Of a stretch of DNA of 64,000 nt, positions 2,465 through 62,596 are shown in pieces. Origin of the DNA: Stutzerimonas decontaminans (GTDB taxonomy: Bacteria > Pseudomonadota > Gammaproteobacteria > Pseudomonadales > Pseudomonadaceae); contig NZ_CP007509.1 in the NCBI RefSeq assembly GCF_000661915.1, forward strand, positions 3,919,501-3,983,500, in the 5' to 3' direction. How positions within the stretch are numbered: the first letter of the stretch is position 1; every line of letters starts with the position of its first letter. The notes under the pieces were generated by a model. It worked only from the letters and a program-made list of their open reading frames with translations. It made no database searches and was not told the origin of the DNA. Made by a program: the position numbers and the translations under genes.

Positions 2465-4408
2465 ATGGCCGGCCTGATCCCGCAATCCTTCATCGATGAT
2501 TTGCTCAATCGCTCCGACATCGTCGAAGTGGTCGGCTCGCGCATCCAGCTGAAAAAGGCTGGCAAGAACTACAGCGCCCTCTGCCCTTTTCACAAAGAAA
2601 AGACACCTTCGTTCAGCGTCAGTCCTGACAAGCAGTTCTACTATTGCTTCGGCTGCGGCGCTGGCGGCAACGCGCTCGGCTTCGTTATGGACCACGACCA
2701 ACTGGATTTCCCCCAGGCGGTCGAGGAACTGGCCAAGCGCGCAGGAATGGAAGTCCCCCACGAGGAAAGCGGCCGCAAGCACAAGCCACGTCAACCAGTC
2801 GACTCGCCGCTCTACCCGCTGCTGGCTGCCGCCGCCGATTACTATCGCCAAGCCCTGAAGAGCCACCCGACCCGCAAATCAGCGGTGGAATACCTCAAGG
2901 GCCGCGGCCTGTCCGGCGTTATCGCGCGAGATTTCGGACTTGGCTTCGCGCCGCCCGGCTGGGACAACCTGATGAAGCATCTCGGTGGCGATGCACTGCA
3001 GCAGAAAGCCCTGATCGATGCCGGCCTGCTGATCGAGAACGCCGAGAACGGCAAACGCTACGACCGCTTCCGCGACCGCGTGATGTTTCCCATCCGCGAC
3101 AGCCGCGGCCGAGTCATTGCCTTTGGCGGCCGCGTCCTAGGCGACGACAAGCCCAAATACCTGAACTCGCCGGAAACCCCGGTATTCCACAAGGGCCAGG
3201 AACTCTACGGCCTCTACGAAGCCCGCCAGGCCAACCGCGACCTCGACGAAATCATGGTGGTCGAAGGCTACATGGATGTCATCGCCCTGGCCCAGCAAGG
3301 CTTGCGCAACGCCGTCGCCACCCTCGGCACCGCAACCAGCGAAGAACACCTCAAGCGGCTATTCCGCATAGTGCCCAGCGTGCTGTTCTGCTTCGACGGC
3401 GACGCCGCCGGACGCAAAGCCGCCTGGCGTGCATTGGAAGCCACGCTACCGAACCTGCAGGACGGCCGCCGCGCCCGCTTTCTGTTCCTGCCGGATGGCG
3501 AAGACCCTGACACACTGGTCCGCTCAGAGGGCACCGATGCATTTCGCGCGCGCATTCAGCAGCATTCGCAGCCGCTGGCCGACTATTTCTTCCAGCAGCT
3601 GAGCGATGAAGCCGATCCGCGGTCACTGGAAGGCAAGGCCCATTTAGCCACGCTCGCGGCGCCGCTCATCGAAAAGATTCCCGGCAGCAACCTGCGCGCC
3701 TTAATGCGCCAGCGCCTCGCCGAGATCACCGGGCTGAACGGTGAAGCCCTGCAACACATGGCAACCGCGCCCGCGCCGAACACCGGCAGCAGCACGCCCG
3801 AATATGACGACTCGGCCTACTACGACACCGGCGCGCACTACACTGAGACGGATTACTTCGAGCCTCCCGAAGCCGCGAAGCAACAACGCAGCACCAAGAA
3901 AGAATGGAAGAAAGACTGGAAAAAATCCGGACAACGGCCAGACTTCAAACCTCGCGCCCCCCGCACACCAGCAACAGTCGAGCCACCGACCCTGACTACC
4001 CTGCGCACCCTGCTGCACCATCCCGGGCTCGCGCAGAAAGTGGAAGATGTCAGTCATTTCGCAGCAGAAGACGATACATACGCGCAATTGCTTGTTGCCC
4101 TGCTCGGCACGCTGCAGAAGAACCCCAAGCTGCGCAGCCTGCAGCTGATCGCACGCTGGCACGGAACCGACCAAGGGCGACTTTTACGTGCACTTGCAGA
4201 GAAAGAATGGCTGATCTCTGCCGATAACCTTGAACAGCAGTTTTTCGACACCATTAATAGCCTTGCCACCCGACAGCGGGAACGCCGACTCGAAAGTCTG
4301 CTGCGCAAGGCTCGCCAAGGTGAACTCAGCGCAGAGGAAAAAGACCAACTGCGTAACCTATTGAGCCGTAACGCAATACCCGCAACACCGACCTCAACTG
4401 GCGCCTGA
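2465..4408 (+). CDS. dnaG: DNA primase DnaG
   Basis: DnaG lays down RNA primers at the replication fork and works with the DnaB helicase. The 647-residue protein shows the N-terminal CHC2 zinc motif (C40, H43, C61, C64), the catalytic RNAP-like core with YLNSPETPVFHKG, and a TOPRIM domain with the glutamate of VVEGYMDV (about E267) and the FDGDAAGRKA aspartates (about D311 and D313). A low-complexity linker rich in Tyr, Asp and Lys (about 425-500) joins the C-terminal helicase-binding domain. It is the middle gene of the macromolecular-synthesis operon, 138 bases after rpsU. The Shine-Dalgarno at ATG 2465 is poor, which fits the low copy number expected of primase. Confidence 0.96.
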   Translation: MAGLIPQSFIDDLLNRSDIVEVVGSRIQLKKAGKNYSALCPFHKEKTPSFSVSPDKQFYYCFGCGAGGNALGFVMDHDQLDFPQAVEELAKRAGMEVPHEESGRKHKPRQPVDSPLYPLLAAAADYYRQALKSHPTRKSAVEYLKGRGLSGVIARDFGLGFAPPGWDNLMKHLGGDALQQKALIDAGLLIENAENGKRYDRFRDRVMFPIRDSRGRVIAFGGRVLGDDKPKYLNSPETPVFHKGQELYGLYEARQANRDLDEIMVVEGYMDVIALAQQGLRNAVATLGTATSEEHLKRLFRIVPSVLFCFDGDAAGRKAAWRALEATLPNLQDGRRARFLFLPDGEDPDTLVRSEGTDAFRARIQQHSQPLADYFFQQLSDEADPRSLEGKAHLATLAAPLIEKIPGSNLRALMRQRLAEITGLNGEALQHMATAPAPNTGSSTPEYDDSAYYDTGAHYTETDYFEPPEAAKQQRSTKKEWKKDWKKSGQRPDFKPRAPRTPATVEPPTLTTLRTLLHHPGLAQKVEDVSHFAAEDDTYAQLLVALLGTLQKNPKLRSLQLIARWHGTDQGRLLRALAEKEWLISADNLEQQFFDTINSLATRQRERRLESLLRKARQGELSAEEKDQLRNLLSRNAIPATPTSTGA

Positions 4409-4475
4409 GGTCCTAGCTCAGCTATAATGCTCAGCTTGTTTTCAGCCCGCCAGAACCTTCAGTGGATAGGGTTAT

Positions 4476-6329
4476 ATGTCCGGAAAAGCGCAACAGCAGT
4501 CTCGCCTCAAAGAGTTGATCCAGCGTGGCCGTGAGCAGGGTTACCTGACTTACGCCGAGGTCAACGACCACCTACCGGAGGATATTTCCGATCCGGAACA
4601 GGTGGAAGACATCATTCGCATGATCAACGACATGGGCATCAATGTATTCGAGGTTGCCCCGGATGCCGATGCCCTGTTGTTGGCCGAAGCCGATACCGAT
4701 GAAGCCGCTGCCGAGGAGGCCGCGGCCGCACTCGCTGCGGTCGAAACCGACATCGGTCGCACTACCGACCCTGTGCGCATGTACATGCGCGAAATGGGCA
4801 CCGTTGAACTGCTGACCCGCGAAGGCGAGATCGAAATCGCCAAACGCATAGAGGAAGGCATTCGCGAAGTGATGAGCGCCATCGCTCACTTCCCCGGTAC
4901 CGTCGACAGCATCCTCGCAGACTACGAGCGTGTAACGACCGAAGGTGGCCGCCTGTCCGACATCCTCAGTGGTTACATCGACCCTGACGACGACGGTGCC
5001 GCCGCCCCTCAGGAAGTCGAACCTGAAGCCCCGCAGACCACCGCGAAAGCGGCAGCCGACGAGAAGGACGACGAGGACGAGGACGACTCCGACACCGAGG
5101 AAGAAGAAGGCGACGGCGGTCCCGACCCAGAGGTTGCACGCCTGCGTTTTGGCGCAGTCGCGGAGCAGCTGGAAAAGGCCAACAAGGCGCTGAAGAAGCA
5201 TGGTCGCGCCAGCCAGCAGGCCGTCGAGGAACTCGAAGCCCTCGCCATCCTGTTCATGCCAATCAAGCTCGTACCCAAGCAGTACGAAGCATTGGTCGAA
5301 CGCGTACGCAGTGCACTGGGCCAGATTCGCGCCCAGGAACGCGCCATCATGCAGCTATGCGTGCGTGACGCCCGCATGCCGCGCGCCGACTTCCTGCGTC
5401 AGTTCCCGAGTAACGAGACCAATCTCGACTGGGCCGAGCAGCTGGCCTCCGGCAAGGGCAAATATGCCGAAGCCATCGGCAACCGCAAGGAAGACATCCA
5501 GCGCTGCCAGCAGAAACTGATCGAGCTGGAACAGGAATGCGACCTGGCAATTGCCGACATCAAGGACATCAACCGTCGCATGTCCATCGGTGAGGCCAAG
5601 GCACGCCGGGCGAAGAAAGAGATGGTCGAGGCCAACCTGCGCCTGGTGATCTCCATCGCCAAGAAGTACACCAACCGCGGCCTGCAATTCCTCGACCTGA
5701 TTCAGGAAGGCAACATCGGCCTGATGAAGGCGGTAGACAAGTTCGAATACCGCCGCGGCTACAAGTTCTCGACCTACGCTACCTGGTGGATTCGCCAGGC
5801 GATCACTCGCTCCATTGCCGACCAGGCACGGACCATCCGTATCCCGGTGCATATGATCGAGACGATCAACAAGCTCAACCGCATCTCCCGTCAGATGCTG
5901 CAGGAAATGGGTCGCGAACCCACACCTGAGGAGCTTGGCGAGCGCATGGAAATGCCCGAGGACAAGATCCGCAAGGTGCTGAAGATCGCCAAAGAGCCGA
6001 TCTCCATGGAAACGCCAATCGGTGACGACGAAGACTCGCACCTGGGTGATTTCATCGAAGATTCGGCCATGCAGTCGCCGATCGATGTAGCCACCGTGGA
6101 AAGCCTCAAGGAAGCCACCCGCGAAGTCCTTTCCGGCCTAACGGCTCGTGAAGCCAAGGTACTGCGGATGCGCTTCGGCATCGACATGAATACCGACCAT
6201 ACCCTCGAGGAAGTCGGCAAACAGTTCGATGTCACCCGCGAGCGGATTCGTCAGATCGAAGCCAAGGCGCTGCGCAAGCTACGCCACCCGACGAGAAGCG
6301 AGCACCTGCGCTCCTTCCTTGACGAGTAA
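4476..6329 (+). CDS. rpoD: RNA polymerase primary sigma factor RpoD (sigma-70)
   Basis: RpoD directs core RNA polymerase to housekeeping promoters. The 617-residue protein has region 1.1 at the N-terminus, [18 protein letters not shown] (region 1.2), an acidic non-conserved insert rich in Asp and Glu at about 180-215, the region 2 segment [19 protein letters not shown] with the -10-recognition stretch [12 protein letters not shown], region 3, and the region 4 helix-turn-helix ending [27 protein letters not shown]-like element at 4423-4428 in the 67-base dnaG-rpoD gap could be an internal promoter, but no convincing -35 was found. A strong terminator follows. The gene is intact. Confidence 0.97.
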
Positions 6330-6333
6330 GACC

Positions 6334-6366
6334 AGAACCCCCGGCATGCCGGGGGTTCTTTTTTGT
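6334..6366 (+). terminator. Intrinsic terminator after rpoD
   Basis: AGAACCCCCGG and CCGGGGGTTCT form an 11-base perfect stem around CATG, followed by a T run. It ends the rpsU-dnaG-rpoD operon and insulates it from the tRNA promoter downstream. Confidence 0.92.
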
Positions 6367-6394
6367 GCTAATGGCTATCAAGCACCAGCTTCAA

Positions 6395-6424
6395 TTGGCG
6401 CAGCCGCTACACCGCCGGTATAAT
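6395..6424 (+). promoter_or_regulatory. Promoter of the split tRNA-Ile2 gene
   Basis: TTGGCG at 6395-6400 and a perfect TATAAT at 6419-6424 have an 18-base spacer. Mature tRNA position 1 is 6440, so the leader would be about 8-10 bases. The GC-rich stretch after the -10 resembles the discriminator of stringently controlled stable-RNA promoters. It probably drives the whole tRNA-intron transcript. Confidence 0.75.
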
Positions 6425-6464
6425 CCGCCGGCCTTCTGGGGGCCTATAGCTCAGTTGGTTAGAG

Positions 6465-6478
6465 CAGAGGACTCATAA
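6465..6478 (+). other. Intron-binding sites IBS2 and IBS1 in the 5' exon
   Basis: IBS2 is CAGAGGA (6465-6471) and IBS1 is CTCATAA (6472-6478), contiguous with the 5' splice site. Together they cover tRNA positions 25-38, that is, the 5' anticodon-stem strand and the whole anticodon loop. Confidence 0.85.
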
Positions 6479-6732
6479 GTGCGCCGTAAGATGGCGCAAC
6501 AACGTTGTGGTTAATAGCCACCTCCCTGTGACATCGGGAGTAAAACAGCGGCTTACCGGAGGGGGAAACCCCGTAAGGGAACAGAGCATGCCGTGAAAAG
6601 GCTTTCTGCGGTGGAATCTCACTACCAATAGAGAGAGTCAGTTAGTGCAGGTCATGGTCAAGGCTGTATTGCTTGAAGCCTAGGTGAAGTGTGGGTAGGT
6701 CGGCACCGGGGTGGCATGAGATTGACGCCACT

Positions 6733-6739
6733 TCCTTTG
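6733..6739 (+). other. EBS2 of the intron
   Basis: TCCTTTG pairs antiparallel with CAGAGGA (6465-6471): six Watson-Crick pairs and one G-U. The same seven bases start the 3' exon (9072-9078), so EBS2 copies the natural partner strand of the anticodon stem. Confidence 0.8.
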
Positions 6740-6742
6740 TGT

Positions 6743-6769
6743 GAGGGAAAACGATTATGAGTTTCCCTC
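6743..6769 (+). other. EBS1 hairpin loop of domain I with delta base
   Basis: GAGGGAAA (6743-6750) and TTTCCCTC (6762-6769) form an eight-base stem. Its loop shows TTATGAG (6755-6761), perfectly complementary to the anticodon loop CTCATAA. The base just 5' of EBS1, A6754, can pair with T9072, the first base of the 3' exon, as the delta-delta' contact of IIA introns. Confidence 0.9.
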
Positions 6770-6916
6770 AAGTCACTACAAAGGCACTAGCGCTAGTAGC
6801 GTGAAAAACAACCGAAAGGGCGACCTAAAACCTGAGCACGTTGTTGCGTTAACTGCGGGATCACCTAACGGGAGTAATCCCCATGGTGACGGAAGGTTCG
6901 TAGTACCTATTTGCAA

Positions 6917-6992
6917 GGGCCGGTAGCATAACGGTTAATGCAGCGGCCTCATAAGCCGTTGAGTGCGGGTTCGAATCCCGCCCGGCCCACCA
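6917..6992 (+). tRNA. Complete CAU-anticodon tRNA inside the group II intron (probable tRNA-Ile2)
   Basis: Seventy-six bases fold as a canonical tRNA: acceptor GGGCCGG/CCGGCCC (seven perfect pairs), D stem GCAT/ATGC with loop AACGGTTA, base A26, anticodon stem GCGGC/GCCGT (one G-U) around CTCATAA, a five-base variable loop, T stem GCGGG/CCCGC around TTCGAAT, A73 and encoded CCA. The anticodon CAT is at 6950-6952. C4-G69 and C5-G68 pairs favour TilS-type Ile2 over Met. D stem, anticodon stem and T stem differ clearly from the host tRNA, so it is not a simple duplication; a phage-like origin is possible but untested. It has no obvious promoter of its own and would be cut from the intron transcript by RNase P and 3' processing enzymes. 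Confidence 0.93.
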
Positions 6993-7116
6993 TCTTTCGA
7001 GGTGAGGGGCTGTGCCCGTCATCTATCGCCACCCTCCGCATATACGACCGGCTAATCCCCGGTGAAAGGGAAGGAACCTAGGATGTAACGCTTCTAGGAC
7101 GGTGGGGGTATGCGCG

Positions 7117-8967
7117 ATGCAAAATAAAAGCTTCACCAGAATAGAGGCAATCAGGAAGGCCAACGCCGACCCGACCTACGTGAATGATCGCATCTATCGA
7201 CTTATGTTCAAGGAAGACTTGTACATAGCCGCATACGAGAAGATCAAGAGCAAACCCGGAAATATGACAGCGGGTGCGGATGGTACAACCCTAGATGAAT
7301 TCTCGATCAGAACAATCAAGAACATCATCGAAAAGATGAAGAGCGAAAGCTTTTCATTCAGAGGTGCCAGAAAGGTTCTTATCCCCAAGGCAAACGGCAA
7401 AACCAGAGCACTATCGGTAGCGCCACCCACTGACAAGGTTGTGCAAGAGGTCATGAGAATGATCTTGGAAGCCATTTTCGAGCCCACGTTCAGTTCCAAC
7501 AGTCACGGGTTCAGGTCAGGGAGGAGTTGCCACACAGCTCTGAAGCAGATCCGGAAGAACTGGTCAGGAGTAACGTGGATCATCGAAGGAGACATTAAAG
7601 GCTGCTTCGACAATATCAACCACGAGAAACTAATCAGGGAACTGGCTAAGCGAATCACGGATGAGCGATTTATTAACCTTGTAAGGAAGGCGCTCAACGC
7701 GGGCTACTTCGAGGACGGGGCATTCTTCAGCGGTGATCTCGGGACGCCACAGGGAAGCATCATCTCCCCCATACTGGCGAACATCTTCCTGCATCAACTC
7801 GACCGCAAGGCCGAGAAGATCATCGAGGAAAACGAGATCGGCGAAGAGGATAAGAAAGCCTTGAACCCCGAGTACAGAAAGGTCGTGAAGAGAAGAGCCT
7901 ACCTCCAGAAAACTCTGGAACGGAAAGAAGGTACGGAACGAGAGGCTGCCATCGCCGAAATTCGAGCGTTGAACAACCAGTCCCTCACCATGTCCCCTAA
8001 TCTGATCACGAGTAATGGTTTCATCAGGGTTAAGTATGTCCGATACGCCGACGACTGGGTAATTGGGGTCAACGGGCCGAGGAAACTAGCTGAAACGATC
8101 CGCGCAGACATCGGAGACACTCTTTCCACAATGGGTCTCGAACTCAGCATGGAAAAGACACACATCCGTCATGCAAAGACCGAATCCGCAACCTTCCTAG
8201 GAACCACCTTCAGGGTCGGTTCCGCAACACCCAAGATCATGAAAGTCAGCCGTGGGGGTAGGATATTCAAGAAAAGGGTAGCTGGGTGGACTCCCCTGAT
8301 GTACGCGCCTATCGGCGAGATCATCAAGAGACTAAGCGCCAAAGGGTTTTGCGACCCCAAGGGCAACCCCACCGCGATCAAAAAATGGATATACCTGGAC
8401 GATACACAAATCGTTGAGCAAGTTGGAGCGGTATGGAGGGGGATCTGTAATTATTACTCCTTCGTTGACGGATTCGCGAAACTTTCAAGAATCCAGTTCA
8501 TTCTCCAACACGCAGTAGCTAAGACCTTGGCGGCCAAACATCGGTCGTCGCGTAGCAAGGTCTTCTCTAAACACGGTGCAAACCTTCGATTTAGGGTCAG
8601 AAATGAGGCTGGCGAAGTGGTTAAAACGGTGAGCTTCCCGCTTGTAAAATCGTGGAAATCATCGCCAGATAGGTTTAAAACGAACGAAGTTGACATCAAC
8701 TTCCTCGAACGCAACCTCAGGCTTCGAACGAGGTCTAAACTGGGATCACTATGCGTCATCTGCGGAAGTGGCGACCGTGTGGCCATGCACCACGTGAAAC
8801 ACATAAGGAAGCTGGGTAAAGAGGTAAAAGGGTTCAACCGGGTAATGGCAATCCTAAACAGAAAGCAAATACCGGTATGCCACGAATGCCACCACAAGAT
8901 ACACAGTGGGAAGTACGACGGCATCTCCCTCAACCAATTCGCCCTACCTCATGTGGCAGCGGCCTGA
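7117..8967 (+). CDS. Group II intron-encoded protein: reverse transcriptase, maturase, HNH endonuclease (LtrA-like)
   Basis: This 616-residue protein should assist splicing of its intron and copy it into DNA targets. In order: RT0-RT7 (about 20-370) with [11 protein letters not shown] (catalytic D159), [15 protein letters not shown] and the active-site box YADD (Y310-D313); domain X, the thumb/maturase, ending near [13 protein letters not shown] (about 441-453); then a DNA-binding region and a C-terminal HNH endonuclease with CVIC (C546, C549), MHHVKH (about 557-562) and CHECHHKIH (about 588-596). All key residues are present, so it looks active. I chose ATG 7117, eight bases after GGTGGGGG; GTG 7102 in frame is the alternative. 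It sits in intron domain IV, with domain V starting 11 bases after its stop. Confidence 0.95.
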
Positions 8968-8978
8968 TTACATCTGGA

Positions 8979-9012
8979 GAGCGCAGTGCTTGGAAACCTG
9001 CACGCTGCGTTC
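8979..9012 (+). other. Group II intron domain V
   Basis: A 34-base hairpin: GAGCGCAG (8979-8986) pairs with CTGCGTTC (9005-9012) through eight pairs, one of them G-U. It contains the catalytic AGC triad (8980-8982), a two-base CG bulge (9003-9004) and a purine-rich GGAAA apical loop. Its size and layout are those of an active ribozyme core, although the apical helix contains pyrimidine mismatches. Confidence 0.85.
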
Positions 9013-9014
9013 GG

Positions 9015-9069
9015 AGGAAGCCTGTTGGTCGCCTAACTCTGTGAGGAGAAGGTTCTGGCAGGCCATCCT
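9015..9069 (+). other. Group II intron domain VI with candidate branch-point A9065
   Basis: AGGA (9015-9018) pairs with TCCT (9066-9069), and GCCTGTTGG (9020-9028) with CTGGCAGGC (9055-9063) including G-U pairs. C9064 and A9065 stay bulged; A9065 is seven bases from the 3' splice site, the usual branch-point position. Confidence 0.7.
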
Positions 9070-9114
9070 ACTCCTTTGGTCCACGGTTCGAGTCCGTGTG
9101 GGCCCACCACCTTC

Positions 9115-9139
9115 AAAGCCGCGCATTGCGCGGCTTTTT
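9115..9139 (+). terminator. Terminator of the tRNA-Ile2/intron transcript
   Basis: AAAGCCGCGC and GCGCGGCTTT form a ten-base stem around ATT, followed by more T residues. It starts six bases after the encoded CCA of the 3' exon. Confidence 0.9.
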
Positions 9140-48523: not shown

Positions 48524-48591
48524 GTGAACGGTTTTCCCTTTCAGCATCGCCGCCGCTCCTCCCCCCAAAATCCTGGATTCCAAGAACCCCG

Positions 48592-51009
48592 ATGCGTTTT
48601 TTGAAATTTCTTCTCTGGTCGTGCTTCGCAGTTTTTTGCGCCCTGTTGCTCAGCGTCAGCGGTGCATTTCTCTACCTCAGCCCCAACCTGCCTTCGGTCG
48701 ACTCGCTTCGCAGCATACAGCTGCAGATTCCGCTGCGGGTCTACAGCGCCGATGACAAGCTGATTGCGGAGTTCGGCGAGATGCGACGCTCGCCTATTCG
48801 TTTCGAAGAAATCCCCCAAGAATTCATCCAGGCGCTACTTGCCGCAGAGGATGACAATTTCGCCAATCATTATGGCGTCGACATAACCGGCCTGATGCGC
48901 GCTGCCACGCAATTATTGAAAAGCGGACAGATTCAGACCGGCGGCAGCACGATCACCATGCAGGTGGCAAAGAACTACTTCCTCACCAGCGAACGCAGCT
49001 TCTCGCGCAAGATCAATGAAATTCTGCTGGCCCTGCAGATCGAGCGCGAGCTCAGTAAAAACGAGATCCTTGAGCTGTACGTCAACAAGATTTACCTAGG
49101 CAATCGGGCCTATGGGATCGAGGCGGCCTCCCAGGTGTATTACGGCAAGCCCATCGCCGAACTAAGCATCGCACAACTCGCCATGATCGCGGGCTTGCCG
49201 AAGGCACCCTCGGCCTTTAACCCATTGGTCAACCCAAGCCGCAGCAAGGAACGCCGTGATTGGATTCTGGGCCGAATGTACAGACTTGGCTCACTCGATG
49301 ACTTAGCTTATCGGCAGGCGCTGGCCGAACCTGAGACCGCCCGCTATCACGGCGCCGCACCTGAACTGGATGCGTCCTATATAGCCGAGATGGCCCGAGC
49401 CGAGATGGTCGGCCGGTTCGGTAGCGCGGCGTACACCGATGGCTTCAGGGTGCATACCACAGTGTCCAGCGAGCGGCAGATAGCGGCTAACGCTGCACTT
49501 AACAGCGGCCTTATCGAATACGACCAACGACACGGCTATCGCGGGCCCGAGGCTCGCCTCGCTGAGCTACCCCGCGATAGCTGGATGCAGGAGCTTGCCA
49601 AGTACAGAGGCTTGGGCGGCTTACAACCTGCCGTAGTTACGCAAGTCGAGAACAGCGGCATCCTTGTTCTCACCCGCGACGGCAAAGAGCAGCCCGTGAG
49701 TTGGGAGAGCATGAAATGGGCCCGCCCATTCCTGGGCGTCAATAGCATGGGGCCCAGGCCCCAACGCCCTGCGGACGTGGTGAAGGTTGGCGATATCGTG
49801 CGCATTCGTTGGCAGGAAGAGACCGCTGCGTTCAGCCAAGTCCCGCTGGCACAAGCAGCCTTGGTCTCCCTTGACCCGCAAGACGGATCGATCGAAGCAC
49901 TGGCGGGTGGCTTCTCCTTTGGCCAAAGCAACTACAACCGCGCCATCCAAGCCAAGCGTCAGCCCGGCTCGAGCTTCAAGCCCTTCATTTATAGCGCGGC
50001 ACTGGACGCGGGCTACACCGCAGCGAGCCTGGTCAACGACTCCCCCATCGTTTTTGTTGAGCAGGGCATGGATCGAATCTGGCGCCCCAAGAATGACAAC
50101 AATACCTTTCTCGGACCGATCCGCATGCGGGAGGCATTGTACAAATCGAGAAACCTGGTTTCGATCCGCCTGCTGCAGACGATGGGTATCGATCATACGG
50201 TCGACTACATCAGCCGCTTCGGCTTCAACCCGCAAGACCTGCCTCGCAACCTATCACTGGCGCTGGGCACGGCCACGCTGACACCAATGGAAATTGCCAC
50301 CGGCTGGACGACCTTCGCTAACGGTGGCTACAAGATCGAGCCGTACCTTATTCAAAGGATCGAAGATCGGGAGGGCAATCTGGTCTTTGAAGCCAACCCG
50401 GCACGGGTCCCGCAACGCGATGCCCAGCATGCAGAGGCCGATGCCGCGCCCGCAAGTCATGTATCTGGCGCAGACGAATCGACAGAGACGGAGCCGCGAC
50501 TCGCCGAGCAAGTGCTGGACGAGCGCACTGCCTACATCATGACCAGCATGCTGCAGGACGTTATCAAACGCGGCACAGGCCGTCGTGCGCTGGCCATGGG
50601 CCGAAATGACATCGCCGGTAAGACCGGCACTACCAACGACTCCATAGACAGCTGGTTCTCCGGCTATAACGCTGACATTGTTACCACGGTGTGGGCGGGC
50701 TTCGATCAGCCGCAAAGCCTTGGTCGCAACGAGTATGGCGGCACGGTCGCGCTGCCGATCTGGATGAGCTACATGAGTGCCGTACTCAAGGACACCCCCG
50801 AGCATCCACCGGCGGAACCGGACGGGCTGCTCAAACTGCGCATTGACCCGGTCAGCGGCCGGGCGGCGACGCCGAGCACGCCCGACGCCTATTTCGAGGT
50901 GTTCAAAAGCGAAGATTCGCCGCCCCCGATGGGCGAGTTCGACCCTGGCTACCAAGCGCCCGGCAGCCCACTGCCCGCTGATGAAGCAGCACCGCTCGAC
51001 CTGTTCTGA
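48592..51009 (+). CDS. ponA: Penicillin-binding protein 1A (bifunctional transglycosylase/transpeptidase)
   Basis: This class A PBP polymerises and cross-links peptidoglycan. The 805-residue protein has a membrane anchor (FLLWSCFAVFCALLLSVSGAFLY split around residues 5-27), a GT51 domain with LLAAEDDNFANHYGVD (catalytic Glu), GGSTITMQVAKNYFL and KNEILELYVNKIYLGNRAYG, an OB-like insert, and the transpeptidase domain with SxxK in PGSSFKPF, SRN in YKSRNLVS and KTGTTND. It is divergent from pilM, as in other pseudomonads, and ends at a strong terminator. Both active sites are complete. Confidence 0.95.
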   Translation: MRFLKFLLWSCFAVFCALLLSVSGAFLYLSPNLPSVDSLRSIQLQIPLRVYSADDKLIAEFGEMRRSPIRFEEIPQEFIQALLAAEDDNFANHYGVDITGLMRAATQLLKSGQIQTGGSTITMQVAKNYFLTSERSFSRKINEILLALQIERELSKNEILELYVNKIYLGNRAYGIEAASQVYYGKPIAELSIAQLAMIAGLPKAPSAFNPLVNPSRSKERRDWILGRMYRLGSLDDLAYRQALAEPETARYHGAAPELDASYIAEMARAEMVGRFGSAAYTDGFRVHTTVSSERQIAANAALNSGLIEYDQRHGYRGPEARLAELPRDSWMQELAKYRGLGGLQPAVVTQVENSGILVLTRDGKEQPVSWESMKWARPFLGVNSMGPRPQRPADVVKVGDIVRIRWQEETAAFSQVPLAQAALVSLDPQDGSIEALAGGFSFGQSNYNRAIQAKRQPGSSFKPFIYSAALDAGYTAASLVNDSPIVFVEQGMDRIWRPKNDNNTFLGPIRMREALYKSRNLVSIRLLQTMGIDHTVDYISRFGFNPQDLPRNLSLALGTATLTPMEIATGWTTFANGGYKIEPYLIQRIEDREGNLVFEANPARVPQRDAQHAEADAAPASHVSGADESTETEPRLAEQVLDERTAYIMTSMLQDVIKRGTGRRALAMGRNDIAGKTGTTNDSIDSWFSGYNADIVTTVWAGFDQPQSLGRNEYGGTVALPIWMSYMSAVLKDTPEHPPAEPDGLLKLRIDPVSGRAATPSTPDAYFEVFKSEDSPPPMGEFDPGYQAPGSPLPADEAAPLDLF

Positions 51010-62415: not shown

Positions 62416-62596
62416 AGAAAGAGTCAGGAAGGATGTAGAAAGCGATTAGCTTGAGAAGCCGCGCAGCAAGAGACGAACAGGTTCGTTGTGCTTTATGAGG
62501 CTGAAGTGCGTCGGCGACGGCGTGCAGAGGGCGACGGAAGAATGCGTCGCGAGGCCGAATTTAGCACCGCGCAGACGAAGCGTCCACCCTGCCGAT

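Follow-up and report, generated by a model that had tools for sequence, protein, structure and literature searches.

A group II intron interrupting a tRNA-Ile2 gene carries a tRNA with the same anticodon

In Stutzerimonas decontaminans the gene of tRNA-Ile2(CAU) is split by a group II intron, and inside this intron lies a second, complete tRNA with the anticodon CAU. The question raised by this locus is why an intron that breaks a tRNA gene should carry a tRNA matching the broken one. It was addressed by an analysis of the window (the whole stretch of 64,000 nucleotides) and by a survey of loci encoding related reverse transcriptases (RTs). We consider it likely that a mobile group II intron reading the anticodon loop carries a same-anticodon backup tRNA that covers the isoacceptor it disrupts.

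All features of the locus are on the forward strand. The 5' exon (6440-6478) contains nucleotides 1-38 (tRNA numbering) of the host tRNA-Ile2(CAU), the 3' exon (9072-9109) contains its second half with the CCA, and between them lies the intron of 2593 nt (6479-9071), starting with GTGCG and ending with AC. The insertion point follows the 39th base, where the anticodon loop ends, and separates nucleotides 38 and 39 of the tRNA numbering. The joined exons (77 nt) are identical to the uninterrupted tRNA-Ile2 in 27 of the 28 congeneric loci read; the remaining one has the 5' half of tRNA-Ile2 only, followed by other DNA. The empty site is thus known from congeners, the insertion is precise, and the joined site has no duplicated tRNA end. 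A promoter-like site, TTGGCG-18-TATAAT (6395-6424), is found 15 nt upstream of the host tRNA by pattern match only, with 3 such sites observed vs 1.6 expected; its TATAAT is retained in the three congeners displayed. Downstream of the host tRNA, a terminator-like stem with a T run (9115-9137) is likewise a pattern match (4 found vs 3.3 expected) retained in the three congeners displayed. The ORF adjoining the host tRNA on the 5' side (4476-6329) looks like rpoD, as named by eye.

The element has the 5' GUGYG and 3' AY ends and the domains 5 and 6 (D5/D6; 8977-9071, RF00029, 50.5 bits) of a group II intron, the A at position -7 from its 3' end being the likely branch point. The intron-encoded protein (7117-8967; ATG 7117 is the likely start, the frame being open from GTG 7102) contains reverse transcriptase (YADD), maturase and HNH domains, and scores 278.7 bits against the NCBIfam group II RT model, below the cut-off of 300. 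Judged by these signatures, the element is a complete mobile-type group II intron in a tRNA gene. No integrase or att sites of a tRNA-targeting integrative element were found; the long ORF of the intron (7102-8967) encodes the RT/maturase/HNH protein. Other Rfam matches in the window are asponA (48569-48861, reverse strand, 129.6 bits) and Pseudomon-Rho (62458-62559, reverse strand, 74.8 bits).

The carried tRNA was detected by ARAGORN exactly at 6917-6992 and by Rfam (RF00005, 75.7 bits with the gathering score of 29), which makes it the third best among 59 tRNA matches of the genome (range 52 to 78.5 bits). The 76-base CAU cloverleaf of the sequence-only reading was recovered by a covariance-model scan, with its seven acceptor pairs, the loop CTCATAA and the encoded CCA. 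The stems differ from those of the host tRNA, as had been noticed (55 of 75 aligned positions match). The tRNA alone has a predicted fold of -36.1 kcal/mol (z = -3.1). A fold that includes the intron flanks retains the acceptor, anticodon and T stems, the whole 246-nt stretch having z = -1.1, and in the predicted fold of 6870-7115 the tRNA lies inside the end loop of a stem. An alignment of 11 intron 5' regions places it between the end of domain 1 and a D3-like block, where the tRNA-less relatives have a short stretch; with the domains assigned by eye, this position would correspond to domain 2 (D2). ARAGORN also reported a tmRNA at 6697-6992, which was taken as spurious since it ends on the carried tRNA and Rfam reports no tmRNA. 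A warning for annotation follows from the same program, which calls the carried tRNA a tRNA-Met and misses the split host.

According to PMC12514573, C4-G69 and C5-G68 are identity elements for the TilS of E. coli, and the 3-70 pair and the D-loop matter for that of Burkholderia. The carried tRNA has a sound CAU cloverleaf with C4-G69 and C5-G68, the two pairs already pointed out by the sequence-only reading, and G3-C70. Acceptor pairs 2-5 are invariant across four CAU carried tRNAs, and a tilS gene is present in the genome. Its other CAU tRNAs are one elongator Met and fMet genes (three fMet places by loop pattern; the inventory covers all of the 59 places but one of 87 nt). AUA makes up 38 of 15,395 codons in the 29 mechanical ORFs of the window, which means that the Ile2 isoacceptor is used, provided that these ORFs are genuine. 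By these sequence features the structure of the carried tRNA is sound, its anticodon is CAU and its acceptor pairs are of the Ile2 type.

How the intron finds its target is suggested by its exon-binding sites. EBS1 (TTATGAG, 6755-6761) is complementary to the whole anticodon loop CTCATAA, with all seven EBS1-IBS1 pairs formed in the window. Among 20 tRNA-hosted introns EBS1 pairs with the anticodon loop at 7/7 positions in 18 (G-U allowed) and at 6/7 in two (L089 and L090); the EBS1 segment lies in domain 1 near intron position 280 (274-314; 249 in L090). Given this complementarity, the address of the intron is the anticodon loop.

The survey comprised 101 loci with a related RT, some near-identical and others distant (down to 26% identity). 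They came from genome contigs (80 kept of 158), viral contigs (16), four plasmid records and the window; of the plasmid matches, H1, H2, H42, H44, H47 and H48 were fetched, and L182 and L183 proved to be loci L084 and L115 again. Hosts were called by joining the flanks at candidate intron ends and scanning the joined sequence for a tRNA. A carried tRNA together with a readable host was found in 17 loci. In all 17, the carried anticodon equals that of the host, the host is split after nucleotide 38, the carried tRNA is on the sense strand of the intron, and the joined host exons give a sound tRNA. These carriers are related loci, not 17 independent events. They cover six isoacceptors: Ile2-CAU (the window, L086 from Pseudomonas fragi and L089 from Massilia), Ser-UGA (L094, L095, L096, L098, L101, L108, L111, L114 and L117), Leu-UAA (L084 and L115), Leu-UAG (L184 from plasmid pPL1 of Pseudomonas silesiensis), Arg-CCU (L104) and Val-CAC (L110 from Ktedonosporobacter rubrisoli). 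Two loci were kept out of the carrier counts: L113 from Cupriavidus, which has a CAU tRNA and an unreadable host, and L185, where a CAU tRNA follows a broken intron. In the latter (plasmid of Microvirga lotononidis) this tRNA (3057-3132) is located just 3' of an intron RT devoid of its 5' part, and its acceptor, GGGGGTG, is unlike the Ile2-like GGGCC. One Massilia genome (G768) contains two different carrier introns, L089 in Ile2 and L096 in Ser-UGA. The intron of L184 (592-4628) shares its part of the plasmid with a number of tRNA genes (Pro, Ser, Leu, CAU and Thr), and a carrier can therefore also occupy a tRNA gene that may not be essential.

A carried tRNA is not obligatory, since three tRNA-hosted relatives have no intact one: none was found in L088 (Psychrobacter, Ile2) and L090 (Thiomargarita, Thr-UGU), and L087 (Marinobacter, Ile2) has just a 5' tRNA remnant at the same place. 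With wide boundary limits, the other 80 loci comprised 69 in which joining the flanks produced no tRNA, 10 for which no boundaries were obtained, and the carrier L110. Among these 69, L109 was set apart, having a decayed tRNA half and a tRNA-Val just outside D6, and ARAGORN detected no tRNA inside the remaining 68 introns. The association of tRNA host and tRNA cargo yields a Fisher value of 1.4e-13 on the counts obtained with narrower limits (16/3 vs 0/55) and with related loci treated as independent. Genome samples yielded no new carriers: the 3 found among 398 genomes of the family were those of the window, L084 and L115, and the single one among 369 genomes of the class was that of the window. 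A search of E. coli DNA gave zero matches, viral scans with two other RTs found zero, and the 6 relatives listed from phage records all have identity below 60%. An apparent Burkholderia relative of the carried tRNA is a tRNA(CAU) just 3' of an rpoD-like gene (named by eye); it was rejected as a carrier, no related RT being present in the two loci fetched.

The position of the carried tRNA varies: it is 5' of the RT, just after the RT stop (seven Ser introns and L184) or between two D5/D6 elements (L110). In L094, L096, L104, L115 and L084 it lies 5' of the RT at a distance like that in the window, and is assumed to be in D2 there as well. Its structure is retained. Each carried tRNA scored has at least 54.7 bits, the Ser and Leu ones keep long variable arms, and the acceptor start GGGCC is present with its partners in all four CAU ones that have Ile2-type letters. 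For the four CAU tRNAs, 98.8% of cells are paired, with 9 of 21 pairs changed on both sides, and in seven distinct Ser tRNAs 100% are paired, with 15 of 25 pairs so changed. None of 500 shuffles attained these pairing values, in a test that is inflated when rows are related; for the count of further pair types in the CAU set, 132 of 500 shuffles attained the observed value. The carried tRNAs of the window and of P. fragi differ at five of 76 positions, which form two compensated stem pairs and one T-loop base.

An origin of the carried tRNA as a copy of its host was rejected for most carriers, with identity of 63-83% over 16 pairs (69/73 in L110). Among L095, L098 and L111, the carried Ser tRNAs agree at 89-90 of 90 positions and the hosts at only 75-79 of 89 (for L095 and L111, 90/90 and 79/89, respectively), which indicates that the tRNA travels with the intron. 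In the RT tree, separate well-supported groups of carriers are formed by the window and L086, L089 and L113, L094 and L096, L084 and L115, and L109 and L110; the seven Ser introns with the tRNA after the RT form one more. L104 falls among Chloroflexota introns without tRNA, L184 stands alone, the Ile2/Thr group as a whole is weakly supported (84/88), and some carrier lineages adjoin tRNA-less relatives. As the positions of the carried tRNA differ, even within Ser-UGA, several captures are the simplest reading, and tRNA capture was probably repeated. Pseudomonas sp. FeN3W contains two intron copies, 99.7% identical and each with the same tRNA, which can be taken as an indirect sign of mobility. 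Its chromosomal copy lies 3' of a tRNA-Leu half whose 3' half is ~45 kb away, a layout resembling the result of an island inserting between the two. On the same chromosome (L224), from the intron end at 3422 to ~3900, there is an apparent second tRNA-Leu(UAA), split in the anticodon loop by a few hundred bases; this is perhaps a group I intron on an island, and Rfam named nothing there.

In all 17 carriers, host and carried tRNA have different stem strands upstream of the loop. In the window, a candidate EBS2, TCCTTTGT (6733-6740), would form 8/8 pairs (two of them G-U) with the host anticodon-stem strand GCAGAGGA vs 6/8 with GCAGCGGC of the carried tRNA. Candidates of at least 6 nt were found in only three more carriers, where they pair with the host and carried stems at 8/8 and 5/8 (L104), 7/7 and 4/7 (L108), and 6/6 and 5/6 positions (L086), respectively. 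No such EBS2 was found in the remaining carriers, L110 included, and in L114 the carried stem pairs with the best candidate as well as the host stem does. At nucleotide 39 the two tRNAs are unlike in just 7 of 17 carriers. A general target resistance through EBS2 or IBS3, tried on all 17, is clear in few; judging from these pairings, the carried tRNA likely resists targeting in a few carriers.

In the Val case, L110, the halves of the host tRNA are 4270 bases apart (3704-7973), and an intact tRNA-Val(CAC) (7612-7684) lies between two different D5/D6 elements, with TTGACA and TATAGT boxes upstream of it (by eye). The two tRNAs differ at 4 of 73 positions, which are the two base pairs flanking the loop: C-G/G-C of the host are swapped to G-C/C-G in the carried tRNA, at the insertion site. 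Small as it is, such a swap leaves the tRNA fold intact and changes the insertion site. In the sister locus L109 (Ktedonobacterales, low-coverage MAG) an intact tRNA-Val(CAC) (7427-7498) is located just after D6, and the upstream tRNA half has CGC in place of the expected CAC and looks decayed.

We then considered whether the cells have other copies of the attacked tRNA. In whole-genome pattern searches, intact tRNAs of the host kind were found only inside the introns for 15 of 15 pairs of genome and isoacceptor with a readable host, namely the genomes of the window, P. fragi and Massilia (Ile2), nine Ser genomes, that of L115, FeN3W (two copies) and that of L104; L110 and L184 were left out of this count. 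The patterns need exact loop and T-loop letters, several genomes are drafts, and ARAGORN cross-checks were made for some of them. No second intact Ile2 gene was found by this search in the genome of the window. An apparent second Ile2 in Massilia (L193) is a 3' half only; it lies ~12 kb from the Massilia intron, as integrative elements leave. The Cupriavidus genome of L113 has a second intact CAU tRNA with the GGGCC acceptor, and the Thr pattern for L090 gave no match. If these tRNA types are normally single-copy, the absence of further copies is in part a property of the target. L115 is the strongest natural example of dependence on a carried tRNA: its RT is frameshifted near residues 62-101 (draft sequence), the carried tRNA is intact, and it is the only intact Leu-UAA found in the genome by pattern search; a sequencing error or help in trans are possible. 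In the draft genomes of L087 and L088 the loop pattern found no intact Ile2, and splicing alone seems enough there. Together with the perfect tRNA-Ile2 formed by the joined exons of the window, this runs against the claim of the sequence-only reading that the carried tRNA replaces its host. Its rescue part is favoured by the sound Ile2-type tRNA and the same-anticodon rule, and is weakened by the three relatives lacking an intact carried tRNA.

The reading we prefer rests on the anatomy of the locus, the same-anticodon rule, the occurrence in several lineages and positions, the structural conservation and the lack of other intact copies by pattern; its best form is that a matched backup tRNA would make insertion into a single-copy tRNA gene survivable. 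The intron would recognize tRNA genes via EBS1, the complement of the anticodon loop, and insert into one of them between nucleotides 38 and 39, usually where the cell has no other gene of that kind. It would bring a tRNA with the same anticodon and a different anticodon stem. A single transcript from the host tRNA promoter could yield the carried tRNA after RNase P cleavage and 3' trimming and, if the intron splices, the repaired host tRNA as well. The tRNA lies in a peripheral, dispensable part of the intron; D2 and D4 are peripheral in group II introns, and cutting the tRNA out thus need not stop splicing. Whenever splicing is slow, fails or has been lost, the carried tRNA may supply the isoacceptor; owing to its altered stem it should be a poorer target. 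We infer its expression, processing and charging, along with rescue and target resistance. Addiction, also suggested by the sequence-only reading, would need decayed exons, since precise loss of the intron would restore the host tRNA, and the exons of the window are intact.

Three other explanations were weighed against the backup. The intron may splice well and the host tRNA do the work, with the carried tRNA being functional and a redundant extra that benefits dosage or transfer. The sound joined exons of all 17 carriers, those of the window matching the gene of congeners, agree with this, as do L087 and L088, which seem to live by splicing alone. It leaves unexplained, however, the restriction of carried tRNAs to introns with a tRNA host and their unfailing match with that host, and it fits poorly with the frameshifted RT of L115 and with the decayed-looking host half of L109 next to its intact tRNA-Val(CAC); we regard it as unlikely. 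The tRNA could instead act within the intron RNA as a decoy or regulator: its loop has the letters of IBS1, is thereby complementary to EBS1, and could pair with EBS1 and tune splicing or reinsertion. A mere mimic of the loop could do without the acceptor stem, T arm, long variable arm and Ile2-type acceptor pairs, yet these are all retained, and the position of the carried tRNA varies between lineages, which makes this a very improbable role. Finally, the sequence-only reading allowed for a chance passenger, a tRNA captured by accident. The three tRNA-hosted relatives without an intact carried tRNA are all that speaks for it; it was rejected by the same-anticodon match in every readable carrier, across six isoacceptors and several positions, and is hardly credible.

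The backup reading admits a stronger version, in which a scattered intron family with the anticodon loop as its address has repeatedly captured a recoded, target-resistant tRNA of the attacked isoacceptor. Each such intron would be a natural target-plus-rescue element, breaking a single-copy gene and becoming its only intact source. We see this version as having an even chance of being right, and the Val case would be its cleanest example.

Several known systems resemble the locus in part. The window intron is like mobile bacterial group II introns (RT/maturase/HNH) in its ends, D5/D6, protein, EBS1-IBS1 pairing and insertion without target duplication; unlike them, it has a tRNA gene as host, an EBS1 that reads the anticodon loop, and a tRNA with the anticodon of the host. 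Plastid group II introns interrupt tRNA genes near the anticodon, as here; to our knowledge they carry no second tRNA, trnK carrying only a maturase. There are also integrative elements with tRNA genes as insertion sites, which restore the tRNA or supply one. The logic of repairing or replacing the tRNA target is shared, but these elements use an integrase and att sites, whereas the long ORF of the window intron is a reverse transcriptase. Group I introns also interrupt bacterial tRNA genes; they are another class of ribozyme, and the parts of the sources available to us mention no carried tRNA for them. The statement of the sequence-only reading that no group II intron with such cargo had been described agrees with searches of the open-licence PMC literature, a part of the whole literature (subscription papers and bioRxiv are mostly outside it), which turned up no description of a tRNA-carrying group II intron, the available parts of PMC8919778, PMC4853749 and PMC12514573 included.

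The usual view is that mobile introns persist in essential genes only by splicing. If the backup reading is true, mobile introns would have in the matched spare tRNA a second means of persistence that does not depend on splicing, which would account for the ability of a selfish ribozyme to attack single-copy tRNA genes. It would open to test the change of target by anticodon-reading introns, the capture of tRNAs into D2 or D4, and the possibility that an essential tRNA comes to have such an intron as its only source.
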